From: Lysobacter sp. Root494
GTDB taxonomy: Bacteria > Pseudomonadota > Gammaproteobacteria > Xanthomonadales > Xanthomonadaceae
Length of the DNA: 64,000 nt
NCBI RefSeq assembly: GCF_001427225.1
Contig: NZ_LMFH01000005.1
Location: 795,325 to 859,324 of the forward strand
Direction: 5' to 3'
Shown one piece after another: positions 30,047 to 37,740 of this stretch. The position numbers were made by a program, and so were the translations under genes. Position 1 is the stretch's first letter. The number at the start of each line of letters is the position of its first letter. Below the pieces are notes generated by a model, which worked only from the letters and a program-made list of their open reading frames with translations, ran no database searches and had not been told where the DNA came from.

Positions 30047-30985
30047 TCAGCAGAAGCCGTAGGGCAGGTTGGGACTGGACACGACGCGCTCTCCGACCGG
30101 CTCGCCTTGCAGGAAGCGCAGCGCAGCCGTGATCACGCCCGCATCGTCGGCAACCCGGTTGTGGCCCAGCCCGCGCGTGCTCAGCAGGCGCGATTCGGGC
30201 CAGAAGCGCGCGTAACGCTCGCCTTCCGACCATGGCACTTCGCGGTCTTCCACATCATGCACGATCAGGGCGGGGCGCCCGATGCGGGGGGCGTTGTTGT
30301 GCGCCTGCAGCTCGCTGGCGTCGAAGCGCATCGCCTGTTCGAAGCGCGCGAACATGCGGCGACCGAGATCGCCGGCCAGCCAGACGAAACGCGAGAAGCG
30401 CTCCACGGCCGCGAGCGGGTCCGCGGCAGGGGCGATCAGCACGGCGCGTTGCGCCTCCAGCCCACGCGCGAGCGCCAGCGCCGTGGCCGCGCCACCCAGC
30501 GAGTGCCCGATGACCGCCGCGGCGGGACCGAAGTGATGGCCAATCGCCAGCAGGTGGCAGGTGAAGTCGGGCAGGGTGGTGTGCGTGCCGCCACTGCGGC
30601 CATGGCCGGCCTGGTCGAAGGCAACCACCGCGTAGCCCGCGTCGCGAAGCGGTTTCACCCACGGACCGATGCGGGTGCCGTGACTGGACCATCCGTGCGC
30701 GAAAAGCACGTAAGGCTGTTGCTTCGGGTCGCCCCAGACGTAGGCATGGATGGGCGTGCCGTCGACGCTCAGGTCCAGCTCGGCGGCGCCGTACGTCGGG
30801 GCCGCCAGCGCACGAGCCCGTGACGAGGCGAAGGGTTGAGTGAATAGTGCTGCGGCCTTGCGGACCGCCGCTTCCGGCGCAAGCCACCCGCCGATCAGGA
30901 ATCCAAGTCGCACCGAATACAGCGACGCAAAGTTACGAACGATCGTGCTAATCGAGGGCGAGCGCTTGGAAAGTACCGTAGCCAT
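30047..30985 (-). CDS. Alpha/beta hydrolase
   Basis: A 312-residue serine hydrolase with nucleophile elbow GHSLGGAA, a candidate acid in VEDREVPW and histidine in LGHNRVADD; the oxyanion-hole region is LFAHGWSSHG. The N-terminal 60 residues are mildly hydrophobic. It follows the TetR gene by nine bases on the same strand. Codons 12-17 contain the same 15-base motif as the TetR promoter, so the start may be correct with an internal operator, or a later GTG at codon 25 may be used. Substrate unknown. Confidence 0.87.
   Translation of the reverse strand: MATVLSKRSPSISTIVRNFASLYSVRLGFLIGGWLAPEAAVRKAAALFTQPFASSRARALAAPTYGAAELDLSVDGTPIHAYVWGDPKQQPYVLFAHGWSSHGTRIGPWVKPLRDAGYAVVAFDQAGHGRSGGTHTTLPDFTCHLLAIGHHFGPAAAVIGHSLGGAATALALARGLEAQRAVLIAPAADPLAAVERFSRFVWLAGDLGRRMFARFEQAMRFDASELQAHNNAPRIGRPALIVHDVEDREVPWSEGERYARFWPESRLLSTRGLGHNRVADDAGVITAALRFLQGEPVGERVVSSPNLPYGFC
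30936..30950. promoter_or_regulatory. Candidate TetR operator, copy inside the hydrolase 5' end
   Basis: CGAACGATCGTGCTA is the exact reverse complement of the sequence 12-26 bases upstream of the TetR start. The core ACGATCGT is a perfect palindrome, as expected for a TetR dimer site. Confidence 0.45.
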
Positions 30986-30994
30986 GGGGCACCT

Positions 30995-31618
30995 CTAGGA
31001 ATCAGCGAGTGAGGGGGAATTGGCGGAGTTGGCGGCGAACCAGCGTTCGACCGCCTGTTCGCCGCGTGCGCGGGCGTGGTCGTAACCGAAGAGACCGGAT
31101 TTGTGGTGGACCATCAGCGGGATCGCGTAAAGCTCGAACGCATACTGTTCGACGTCTCCCGCGCGGAGATGGCCTTCGTCGACGGCCAGCTGGATCGCAC
31201 CGCGCAGGATGTCCTGCCAGCGCTGTTCGTTGCGGAGCACCTGGTCGTGCAGCGGACCTGGCCGATCGTCGAACTCGGTCACCGAGCCCAGCAGCACGCA
31301 GCCGCCGGTGTTGCCACGAACCCAGTCGAACCAGTTGTGCATTACCGCGCGCAGGCGCGGCAACCCACGGGGCTGGGAGAGGGCAGGAATGAAGACCGCC
31401 TCGCCGAAGCAACGCGCGGCATGCTCGAGAACCGCGAGCTGCAGGTCTTCGCGCGATCCGAAATGGGCGAAGACGCCGCTCTTTGACATGCCGACGGCTT
31501 GGGCGAGGGGACCGATCGACAGGCCTTCCACGCCGGAGAAGCGGGCGATCTCGTAGGCCCGTTCGACGATGGTTTCCCGGGTCGCGGCGCCTTTGGTGGT
31601 TGCGGTGACGGTGCTCAT
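30995..31618 (-). CDS. TetR-family transcriptional regulator
   Basis: A 207-residue regulator. The N-terminal HTH is intact (TRETIVERAYEIARFSGVEGLS, GPLAQAVGMSKSGVFAHFGS), followed by a ligand-binding domain with a WFDWVRGNTGGCVLLG segment typical of the TetR_C_6/YfiR-like group. It leads an operon with the alpha/beta hydrolase, nine bases downstream, and likely represses it in response to a hydrolase substrate or product. The ATG at 31618 is preferred because upstream in-frame codons overlap the next gene's territory and lack TetR similarity. Confidence 0.88.
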   Translation of the reverse strand: MSTVTATTKGAATRETIVERAYEIARFSGVEGLSIGPLAQAVGMSKSGVFAHFGSREDLQLAVLEHAARCFGEAVFIPALSQPRGLPRLRAVMHNWFDWVRGNTGGCVLLGSVTEFDDRPGPLHDQVLRNEQRWQDILRGAIQLAVDEGHLRAGDVEQYAFELYAIPLMVHHKSGLFGYDHARARGEQAVERWFAANSANSPSLADS

Positions 31619-31629
31619 GCTGCGGAAAA

Positions 31630-31644
31630 TAGCACGATCGTTCG
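31630..31644. promoter_or_regulatory. Candidate TetR operator, promoter copy
   Basis: TAGCACGATCGTTCG lies 12-26 bases upstream of the TetR ATG, over the probable promoter or ribosome site. The same 15 bases recur, inverted, inside the start of the downstream hydrolase gene. Confidence 0.55.
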
Positions 31645-31682
31645 GACGTTGCTTGCCGTCCGTCGGACGCCGAGCCTCTCGC

Positions 31683-32204
31683 TCAGGCAGGCGCACCGGC
31701 GCCCGGTCCCAGCGCCCGCTGCATGAACACCGTGTCCAGCCAGCGACCGTGCTTAAGGCCGATTCCGGGAAATGCACCGATGTGACGGAAGCCGAAGCGT
31801 TCGTGCAGCCGGATCGAGCCGGTGTTCGCGGTTTCGCCGATCACCGCGACCATCTGGCGGAAGCCTCGTGACTCGCAGTCCGCGATCAACCGGCCGAGCA
31901 GGGCCGAGCCGATGCCGCGTCCCTGCCAGTCCGCAGCCACGTAGACCGAATTCTCGACAGTGAAGCGGTAGCCGATCCGTGCACGGAAACTGCTGGCATA
32001 GGCATAGCCGGCGATCTGCCCATCGACCTCGGCGACCAGGTATGGATAACCAGCTTCAACGATCCCCTGCATCCGGCGACGCATCTCGGCTTCGTCCGGC
32101 GCGTCGTATTCGTACGTGTTGACGAAATCGCGCACCTCGGCCGCGTAGATCACGGTGATCGCGGCGATGTCGGCTTCGCAGGCCGCGCGAATGGCAGGTA
32201 GCAC
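31683..32204 (-). CDS. GNAT N-acetyltransferase, phosphinothricin-acetyltransferase-like
   Basis: A 173-residue acetyl-CoA-dependent N-acetyltransferase. The acetyl-CoA loop is DWQGRGIGSALLGRL, and NTYEYDAPDEAEMRRRM and HERFGFRHIGAFPGIGLKHGRW match the Pat/MnaT branch that acetylates phosphinothricin, methionine sulfoximine or methionine sulfone. It begins 12 bases after aguB, so it is probably cotranscribed with the agmatine pathway; an amine substrate from that pathway is a speculation worth testing. Confidence 0.87.
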   Translation of the reverse strand: MLPAIRAACEADIAAITVIYAAEVRDFVNTYEYDAPDEAEMRRRMQGIVEAGYPYLVAEVDGQIAGYAYASSFRARIGYRFTVENSVYVAADWQGRGIGSALLGRLIADCESRGFRQMVAVIGETANTGSIRLHERFGFRHIGAFPGIGLKHGRWLDTVFMQRALGPGAGAPA

Positions 32205-32216
32205 TGGAGCCTGGCC

Positions 32217-33104
32217 TCAGTCGCGATAGCGCTTCAGCAGGTCGCCGTAGGCATCGATGCGCCGGTCGCGCAGGAACGGCCAGATGCGGCGCACGTGCTC
32301 GCTGCGCTCCATGTCGACCTCGCACATCAGGATTTCGGGATCGTTCTGGTTGGCTTCGGCGAGGAATTCGCCCTGCGGTCCGAGCACATGGCTCGAGCCC
32401 CAGAACTGGATGCCCGAAGTTCCCATCGGCGAAGGCTCGTGTCCGACGCGATTGCAGGACAGCACCGGCAACCCGTTGGCGACGGCGTGCCCGCGATGGC
32501 TGAGGATCCACGCGTTGCGCTGGCGATCCTTCTCCGGCTGCCCGTCGTCCGGATCCCAACCGATCGCGGTCGGATAGAGCAGCAGTTCCGCACCGGCGAG
32601 CGCCATCAGGCGCGCGCCTTCGGGGTACCACTGGTCCCAGCACACCATCACGCCGAGGCGGCCGACCGAGGTGTTGATCGGTTCGAAGCCGATGTCGCCC
32701 GGCGTGAAGTAGAACTTCTCGTAGAAGCCCGGGTCGTCCGGAATGTGCATCTTGCGGTACTTGCCCGCGGTGGAGCCGTCCTTTTCGAAGACAACGGCGG
32801 TGTTGTGGTACAGGCCGGTCGCGCGCTTCTCGAACAGCGAACTCACCAGCACCACGCCGTGCTCCTTCGCGAGCTTGCCGAGGCGTTCCGTGCTCGGGCC
32901 CGGGATCGTTTCGGCGAGGTCGAATTCGCACACGTTCTCGTGCTGGCAGAAGTAGGGACCGTTGTGGAGTTCCTGCAGGAGGACCAACTGCGCGCCGCGC
33001 TTCGCCGCTTCAGCCACGCGCGCTTCGATCACGGCGAGGTTCGCATCGGCATCGCCGTGGTTGCGCTCCTGGATCAGGGCGACGGGCAAGGTGGTCTTCT
33101 TCAT
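32217..33104 (-). CDS. aguB: N-carbamoylputrescine amidase
   Basis: Hydrolyses N-carbamoylputrescine to putrescine, CO2 and ammonia. The 295-residue nitrilase-fold enzyme has the Glu-Lys-Cys triad in LLQELHNGPYF, KYRKMHIPDD and GVMVCWDQWYPE, and the family-typical YFTPGDIGF loop. aguA lies upstream on the same strand, 132 bases away, giving the two-step agmatine to putrescine route. An acetyltransferase gene follows at once. Confidence 0.95.
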   Translation of the reverse strand: MKKTTLPVALIQERNHGDADANLAVIEARVAEAAKRGAQLVLLQELHNGPYFCQHENVCEFDLAETIPGPSTERLGKLAKEHGVVLVSSLFEKRATGLYHNTAVVFEKDGSTAGKYRKMHIPDDPGFYEKFYFTPGDIGFEPINTSVGRLGVMVCWDQWYPEGARLMALAGAELLLYPTAIGWDPDDGQPEKDRQRNAWILSHRGHAVANGLPVLSCNRVGHEPSPMGTSGIQFWGSSHVLGPQGEFLAEANQNDPEILMCEVDMERSEHVRRIWPFLRDRRIDAYGDLLKRYRD

Positions 33105-36051: not shown

Positions 36052-37740
36052 ATGACCGAATCATTTGCCGAACTGTTTGAACAGAGCCAGACCAATCTGG
36101 CGAAGCTGAAGCCGGGCTCCATCGTCATCGGTACCGTCGTCGAAGTCCGCGGCGACGTAGTGGTGATCAATGCCGGCCTCAAGTCCGAGGGCATCGTGCC
36201 CATCGAACAGTTCCGTAACGACGCAGGCGAAATCGACGTCGGCGTGGGCGACGAAGTGAAGGTCGCCCTCGACTCCATCGAGAATGGCTTTGGCGAAACC
36301 GTGCTGTCGCGCGAGAAGGCCAAGCGTTCGATGGTGTGGGATGAGCTCGAAGAAGCCCTGCAGGCCAACGCCACCATCACCGGCCGCATCAGCGGCAAGG
36401 TCAAGGGTGGTTTCACCGTCGACATCAAGGACGTCCGTGGCTTCCTGCCCGGTTCGCTGGTCGACGTGCGCCCGGTGCGCGACTCTTCGTACCTCGAAGG
36501 CAAGGAGCTTGAGTTCAAGCTCATCAAGCTCGATCGCAAGCGCAACAACATCGTCGTCTCCCGCCGTGCGGTGGTCGAGAGCGAACATTCGGAAGAGCGC
36601 GAACAGCTGCTCGAGAAGCTCGTCGAAGGCGCAGTGCTGAAGGGCGTGGTCAAGAACCTCACCGATTACGGCGCGTTCGTCGACCTCGGCGGCATCGACG
36701 GCTTGCTGCACATCACCGACATGGCCTGGAAGCGCGTGCGTCATCCGAGCGAAGTGGTCGAAGTCGGCCAGGAGCTCGACGTCCGCGTGCTCAAGTACGA
36801 CCGCGAGCGCAACCGCGTCAGCCTCGGCCTGAAGCAGCTGGGCGAGGATCCGTGGGACAACATCGCGCGTCGCTACCCGGCCAATACCCGCGTGTTCGGC
36901 AAGGTCTCCAACGTCACCGATTACGGCGCGTTCGTCGAGATCGAGCCGGGCGTCGAAGGCCTGGTGCACGTCTCCGAAATGGATTGGACCAACAAGAACG
37001 TCAACCCGTCGAAGATCGTGCAGGTCGGCGACGAAGTCCAGGTCATGGTCCTCGACGTGGACGAAGAGCGTCGCCGTATCTCGCTGGGCATGAAGCAGGT
37101 CACCAGCAATCCGTGGGAAACCTTCGCGGCCATCCACAAGAAGAACGACAAGGTGTCGGGCCAGATCAAGTCGATCACCGACTTCGGCATCTTCATCGGC
37201 CTGGACGGCGGCATCGACGGCCTTGTGCACCTGTCCGACCTCAGCTGGAACACCACCGGCGAAGACGTGGCGCGCAACTACAAGAAGGGCGACACGCTGG
37301 AAGCCGTGGTCCTGGCCGTTGACCCGGAACGCGAGCGCATCTCGCTCGGCGTCAAGCAGCTCGAACAGGACCCGATGGGCCAGTACGTGGCTACCAACGC
37401 CAAGGGTTCGATCGTGAAGGGCACCGTGAAGGAAGTCGATGCCAAGGGAGCGACCGTCGAGCTGGAAGGTGGCGTGGAAGGCTACATCGCCGCCCGCGAC
37501 ATCTCCCACGATCGCGTGGACGATGCCAGCAAGGTGCTGAAGGTCGGCGACGAGATCGAAGCCAAGATCGTTGGCTCGGACCGCAAGGGCCGCAGCATGC
37601 AGCTGTCGATCAAGGCGAAGGATCAGGCCGAGCAGGCCGAAGCCCTTGCCGACTACAACCGCTCTGCCGCGGATGCATCCAGCGGTACCACCAGGCTGGG
37701 CGCGCTGCTGCGCGAACAACTGGGCAACAAGGGCGAGTAA
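36052..37740 (+). CDS. rpsA: 30S ribosomal protein S1
   Basis: A 562-residue RNA-binding protein that brings mRNA to the ribosome. It has six S1 repeats, with clear units such as [41 protein letters not shown] and [24 protein letters not shown] at 36052 ([12 protein letters not shown]) matches the family start. The 176-base leader after cmk ends in a T-rich run (TATTTTTTCTA) rather than a strong Shine-Dalgarno, as is usual for rpsA, whose own translation is autoregulated in E. coli. Confidence 0.97.

Follow-up and report, generated by a model that had tools for sequence, protein, structure and literature searches.

The analysed window, a 64,000-nucleotide stretch of the genome of Lysobacter sp. 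Root494, carries on its minus strand a gene pair that consists of a TetR-family regulator gene (tetR) and an alpha/beta hydrolase gene. Two copies of a 15-base motif (O1 and O2) and a third, partial one (O1u) are associated with this pair. The features are given below, starting from the upstream side of tetR, with the basis of each assignment.

31654–31666, minus strand: O1u, an upstream CCGACGAACGGTC-like operator or half-operator, 22 bp before O1 (10/13 in the window).
31630–31644, minus strand: O1, candidate promoter operator CGAACGATCGTGCTA, overlapping the extended −10 (TGCTATTTT) (exact copy; at least 12/15 in 61/62 family loci).
31626–31631, minus strand: likely tetR −10 hexamer TATTTT, 7 nt 5' of the ATG (from conservation, with a putative promoter role).
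30995–31618, minus strand: tetR, TetR-family regulator of 207 aa, first gene of the pair (PF00440 and PF16925).
30990–30996, minus strand: Shine-Dalgarno-like sequence AGAGGTG for the hydrolase, which shares bases with the tetR stop codon (from the sequence).
30936–30950, minus strand: O2, candidate intragenic operator TAGCACGATCGTTCG in hydrolase codons 12–17, inverted relative to O1 (exact copy; conservation).
30047–30985, minus strand: alpha/beta hydrolase of 312 aa, second gene of the pair (PF12146 Hydrolase_4, E 8e-17).

The tetR product has an N-terminal helix-turn-helix domain (PF00440 TetR_N, 25.7 bits; cut-off 24) and a TetR-class C-terminal domain (PF16925 TetR_C_13, 88.6 bits; cut-off 27), and its nearest solved chain by sequence was 2hyj (E 2.8e-35). 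No terminator-like site was found between tetR and the hydrolase in the window, and the hydrolase is probably co-transcribed with tetR. The gene directly upstream of tetR, at 31683–32204, encodes an ArsN1-related GNAT acetyltransferase whose score of 155.9 bits does not reach the cut-off (210). Several relatives differ here, in that the sequence preceding tetR has an end like that of the amidase gene located at 32217–33104 in the window. Direct repeats of 25 and 16 bases were also observed at 36659–37221, and these might reflect a domain that recurs within a single protein, for example ribosomal protein S1.

An earlier note on this DNA had placed the 15-mer 12–26 nt 5' of the tetR ATG (31618), with an inverted copy in hydrolase codons 12–17, and all of its coordinates were correct. 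The 15-mer TAGCACGATCGTTCG occurs with zero mismatches at 31630–31644 on the plus strand, in the tetR promoter (O1), and again with zero mismatches at 30936–30950 on the minus strand (O2), inverted relative to O1 at a spacing of 694 bp. O1 and O2 were the only exact occurrences of the 15-mer in the complete genome of 3,437,688 bases, and the other genome matches at two or fewer mismatches were four, each with exactly two. A motif widespread in the genome, which the same note had named as grounds for abandoning its proposal, was looked for and not seen. Its statement that a chance 15-base repeat is very unlikely was too strong for a scan of this kind, since Markov-simulated 64-kb windows contained on average 0.53 exact inverted 15-mers 100–1000 bp apart, and 22 of 60 such windows contained at least one. 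Part of the 15-mer is a palindromic core (ACGATCGT), so that this part matches in either orientation. As a scan result alone the repeat is modest, and the real evidence is comparative.

A TetR protein search of 149 genomes of the family gave 62 strong loci, the window's own included. This family set comprises the strongest matches (E 4e-43 or better), and the weaker ones (E 4e-11 and above) were left out. It includes Lysobacter, and other named loci with O1 and O2 are labelled Luteimonas, Vulcaniibacterium, Pseudoxanthomonas, and Arenimonas. The comparison of both sites in related genomes, which had been proposed as a check, showed O1 and O2 each at 12–15 of 15 positions in 61 of the 62 loci. 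The single miss (L072) was a 40% identical paralogue without the hydrolase and was left out of later family counts. When control windows were scored, 12/944 reached 12/15 and none reached 13/15. Although simulated windows show that inverted 15-mers within 1 kb are not rare in 64 kb of sequence, the retention of both sites across the family and the failure of every control window to reach 13/15 make chance a negligible explanation of the repeat.

O2 always lay on the minus strand relative to tetR and 667–750 bp from O1 (61 loci). O1 itself was best matched on the minus strand in four loci (L047, L048, L061, and L064), so that the description of O2 as inverted relative to O1 is true of the other 57. 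The consensus of O1 was AAAACGAACGGTCGTGCTATTTT and that of O2, read the same way, was TTACGAACGGTCGTGCTAATTTT. O2 is kept at least about as strictly as O1, with the higher score at O2 in 21 loci, at O1 in 11, and equal scores in 29. Over 190 loci from the family, order, phylum, and named sets, the O2 zone, unlike any of the 944 control windows of the same loci, reached at least 13/15 in 102, a count in which some genomes appear twice and in which, as in our other locus counts, the sequences are related and hence non-independent. We also note that tetR is apparently frameshifted in one locus of the same genus (L060, genome G074), where residues 1–88 and 85–198 are in different frames while O1 and O2 are kept, and that in L137 and L138 (genomes G032 and G124) a second, 47–48% identical hydrolase immediately precedes tetR and shares its strand.

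With regard to O1, the TATTTT hexamer begins inside the site, and its T/A/T/T/T at positions 13, 14, 15, 16, and 18 were conserved at 0.93/0.89/0.85/0.89/0.82. A conserved dyad lies over the likely tetR −10 in 61/62 loci, as judged from sequence only. A two-hexamer promoter scan of the window returned none for tetR and none around O2. Because only 7 nt separate the end of the −10 from the ATG, the tetR mRNA may be leaderless. TetR bound at O1 would cover the −10 of its own promoter and, with the weaker upstream copy O1u, would bring about autorepression. In the window O1u reads CCGACGGACGGCA, a partial operator-like site. Such a site (at least 9/13) was present in 42/61 loci compared with 5/61 in control windows 100 bp further upstream, and it was positioned 22–23 bp before O1 in 34 of the 42. 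In two loci (L043 and L030) the site corresponding to O1u is a nearly complete operator (14/15).

The placement of O1 also bears on a possible control of translation through pairing of the two copies at the mRNA level, between the tetR leader and the start of the hydrolase. The copies are indeed exact reverse complements in the window, but a site that overlaps the likely −10, as O1 does, would not be part of the tetR transcript, and the centres of the two sites showed no co-variation (24/57 equal, against 20.5 expected if independent). RNA pairing was rejected on this lack of covariation, and we give it hardly any credence.

It had been suggested that the hydrolase start may be wrong and the second copy a promoter operator. 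This was not borne out, since a Shine-Dalgarno-like sequence and a start codon precede O2 in frame in most of the family. Specifically, when the 50 nt 5' of O2 were inspected, 56/61 loci had a start codon with a Shine-Dalgarno-like sequence in the frame of O2, compared with 0 and 2 in the other frames. Four more loci had a start 5' of O2 without a Shine-Dalgarno-like sequence, and a start codon 5' of O2 and in frame was present in 60/61 loci, with L041 as the sole exception. The O2 frame remained open for at least 298 codons beyond O2 in 60/61 loci (the reading frame of L020 is broken), and among the 59 loci with an assigned start, 41 had it 23 nt from O2. In L041, O2 lies 5' of the hydrolase start and so belongs to the leader and not to the codons, with AGGAG and an ATG 34 nt after the first base of O2. 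A wrong hydrolase start was rejected for the window on the in-frame start 5' of O2 and the open frame, L041 being a real exception. The hydrolase start of the window is right.

The codons of O2 carry a strong bias. We aligned 55 of the 61 hydrolases, leaving out five that have diverged (L041, L052, L053, L056, and L057) and L020 with its broken frame, and obtained 182 testable columns. The O2 valine codon was GTT in 52/54 (96%), compared with 5.3% of valines elsewhere, and the O2 isoleucine codon was ATT in 37/39 (95%), compared with 5.2% of isoleucines elsewhere; ACG was used in 54/54 (41% background) and AGC in 51/52 (38% background). These four columns were the most biased of the 182. The fifth O2 column, ACC in 36/37, ranked only twelfth in bias because ACC is common anyway. 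Given that O2 forces rare codons, selection acts on the DNA and not on the peptide. Variants keep the dyad symmetry via another half-site (TAGCACGATCGTACTA at O2 of L065), and the O1 of L047 is fully palindromic (TAGCACGACCGTGCTA).

Conservation of the site for the N-terminal hydrolase peptide ISTTVR, and not for the DNA, might be argued from the fact that ISTTVR is the commonest peptide at O2 (31/61). However, the choice among synonymous codons is nowhere in the gene as biased as at O2, 16 different hexapeptides are encoded there, and O2 persists beside hydrolases that are only 31–36% identical (the five diverged loci named above). In addition, 30 order-level loci were read, with O2 in 7 and absent in 23, and the hydrolases of all 23 O2-less loci (50–56% identity) lack the peptide ST[TI]VR. 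Peptide conservation as the cause of the repeat was ruled out in the main by the codon test, and we regard it as very improbable.

To the extent that a sequence model can identify further targets, none was apparent. The model (23 positions, built from 47 sites) recovered O1 with E 2.8e-4 and O2 with E 3.0e-4 in the window's own genome, and the next match had E 0.5, with scores computed for 150 of the 3173 first-look candidates. When the model was applied to 14 chosen relatives, all matches with E <0.01 were at the tetR locus, and the best elsewhere had E 0.04 (G116). Three O2-less genomes (G307, G351, and G353) yielded O1 only, and G044, a genome without a close tetR, yielded nothing below E 0.1. 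Eight loci (L030, L047, L048, L061, L063, L064, L065, and L072) were left out of the model, which consequently leans to the consensus, and some true O1 sites scored weakly (E 0.016 in G090 and G137, 0.044 in G065, 0.28 in G176, and 0.5 in G096), so that weak additional sites could be missed. A loose 12-mer search gave 20 places compared with 1 for the reversed pattern, a control that is weak because the reversed pattern holds CTAG. Thirteen hydrolase loci without a TetR match (32–47% identical to the window's hydrolase) had no match above 12/15, but these are too distant for clean orthologues and carry little weight as a control. A wider regulon was not found by the exact-motif search or by the site model in the own genome and the 14 relatives, which points to what would be a local, two-site system. 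The conservation, the codon constraint, and the genome scan strongly support the proposal that a single repressor has two operators, at which binding of TetR is predicted.

The history of O2 was traced on a tree of 173 distinct TetR proteins (103 with O2) from the family, order, phylum, and named sets, from which identical TetR and those outside 170–300 aa were left out. O2 needs five changes over the whole tree, in which several deeper nodes are weakly supported. Within a tetR-hydrolase clade of 128 there was one O2 loss, in a clade of 39 (support 0.99) that includes Rhodanobacter, Dyella, Frateuria, and relatives and in which 38/39 are without O2; the other 89 members keep it. O2 thus appears to have been lost once, in the Rhodanobacter/Dyella/Frateuria clade. 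This clade retains tetR, O1, and the hydrolase, and the absence of O2 from 38/39 of its members with the rest kept indicates that O2 is dispensable in some lineages. The perfect O1 consensus was found in 37/39 loci of the O2-less clade compared with 33/61 family loci (Fisher p 6e-6, a value that ignores relatedness), as if a lone operator must be better. The O2 of L179, the remaining member of this clade (12/15 and 763 bp from O1, positive by score), is probably chance.

In more distant loci the position of the site varies. O2 was intragenic in three MAG loci labelled Betaproteobacteria (L173, L193, and L206), and L171, whose contig ends early, resembles these. In L088–L091, which represent a gammaproteobacterial genus of 44–46% GC, an O2-like site is intergenic and follows a hairpin with a T run, its first base 56–69 nt 5' of the ATG at which the next gene likely starts; L090 and L091 have other in-frame ATGs between the site and the likely ATG. 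A hairpin pattern scan found this structure in L088 and not in L089 or L090, and the fold in L091 was weaker (z −2.0). The downstream product in L088 is an alpha/beta hydrolase by Pfam. L122–L124 have a dyad after tetR, where the hairpin of L122 was no better than shuffles (z −0.1), and in L203 and L217 the site lies near the end of tetR. The tetR end of L203 carries two operator-like sites in tandem. An acyl-CoA dehydrogenase is encoded by the gene that follows in L203 and in L197, the latter without O2. Some 20-odd further relatives without the hydrolase have an O1-like site upstream of tetR and no O2.

We consider it probable, on these comparisons, that O1 and O2 are operators of the adjacent TetR, with O1 serving autorepression and O2 most likely acting as an elongation roadblock on the hydrolase. 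TetR at O2 would most likely halt RNA polymerase that is already past tetR. The repressor would then be produced under its own control, and the hydrolase would remain silent as long as no ligand has released TetR, and the roadblock at O2 would in this way uncouple the hydrolase from tetR expression. Because O2 stays by the target start while the O1–O2 distance drifts without a helical phase, we prefer such a local action of O2 over looping or an internal promoter.

It is conceivable that O2 is instead an auxiliary operator, so that TetR at O1 (with O1u) and at O2 would loop ~690 bp and thereby repress the tetR promoter more tightly, in the manner of LacI with lac O2. The presence of two high-quality sites and a third, partial one within a single operon is in line with this, and an O1–O2 loop of LacI is part of the model in the available excerpt of PMC3711431. 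Nevertheless, no helical phasing was detected over the 61 distances (Rayleigh p ~0.25; phasing would be weak anyway at ~690 bp), and O2 remains at the target gene start, with its distance from O1 drifting, though looping would be compatible with other positions as well. The location of O2 at the target gene is better explained by a roadblock, and we consider the loop unlikely. A further alternative is that O2 controls an internal promoter, either sense for the hydrolase or antisense back through tetR. The antisense strand of O2 resembles the tetR promoter (the consensus reads TGCTAATTTT), and the O2-like sites that lie before the likely hydrolase ATG in L088–L091, after the hairpin, and 5' of the start in L041 would also suit a promoter operator. 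Against this, a start codon lies 5' of O2 in nearly all family loci, as described above, several loci have AAAAAAGC flanks, and conservation of the −7 T of the −10 falls from 82% at O1 to 48% at O2; the two-hexamer scan of the window also gave none around O2, although it gave none for tetR either. An antisense promoter at O2 was not supported, given the 48% conservation of the −7 T, and an internal promoter in general seems to us improbable. A roadblock at O2 is the reading that we prefer.

Titles and abstract openings among the matches listed by a search of open-access literature, a scope that most subscription journals fall outside, contained no description of the site. LacI is a tetramer of another family than TetR, and lac O2 lies hundreds of bases inside lacZ. 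As in our system, LacI has a main operator and further ones (O1/O2/O3), and looping between O1 and O2 as well as roadblocking at O3 are described in the excerpt (PMC3711431). Our locus differs in that no phasing was seen and the site hugs the start codon of the target. In Corynebacterium glutamicum, a roadblock is described for the TetR-type RolR and proposed for AtsR, according to the excerpt seen of PMC9210681. RolR (with rolO) and AtsR are, like our regulator, TetR-family proteins with an operator downstream of the transcription start (a predicted position in our case), but the same excerpt gives a single operator 40–105 nt after that start, whereas here a second candidate operator is part of the coding sequence of the second cistron and is separated by 694 bp from the one at the promoter. 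The controller protein C.Kpn2I also has a site inside a coding region, with experimental support for a roadblock there; in the excerpted account, however, it is not a TetR, and the site is in the regulator's own gene and not in a downstream target (PMC6237814). FadP is a predicted TetR regulator of fatty-acid degradation in beta-proteobacteria (excerpt of PMC5343134), and two Burkholderiales TetR relatives (L197 and L203) share a likeness with it in that they adjoin acyl-CoA dehydrogenase genes, which is a lead to FadP-like regulators with an acyl-CoA ligand. With the site model, the window's genome has only O1 and O2 below E 0.5.

TetR roadblocks are known, and it is the conserved, fully coding operator in a second cistron that is new, that is, known parts in a new arrangement. 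To our knowledge, operators within coding sequence have mostly been encountered as isolated curiosities. Here, a coding operator is kept against codon usage in 60/61 sampled site-pair loci, together with a natural control clade that lost O2. Codon-optimised or start-trimmed versions of the gene could lose regulation, and this should serve as a warning. The system makes it testable when a repressor acts on elongation as opposed to initiation, and why evolution writes an operator into a gene. We tentatively put forward a family-wide design, which may well prove otherwise, of one repressor, two operators, and one transcript, in which a relaxed promoter site would be combined with a stricter coding site that blocks elongation. 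If this is true, the coding operator would replace the terminator and separate target promoter that some distant loci suggest, and the repressor and its target would be uncoupled without a second promoter.
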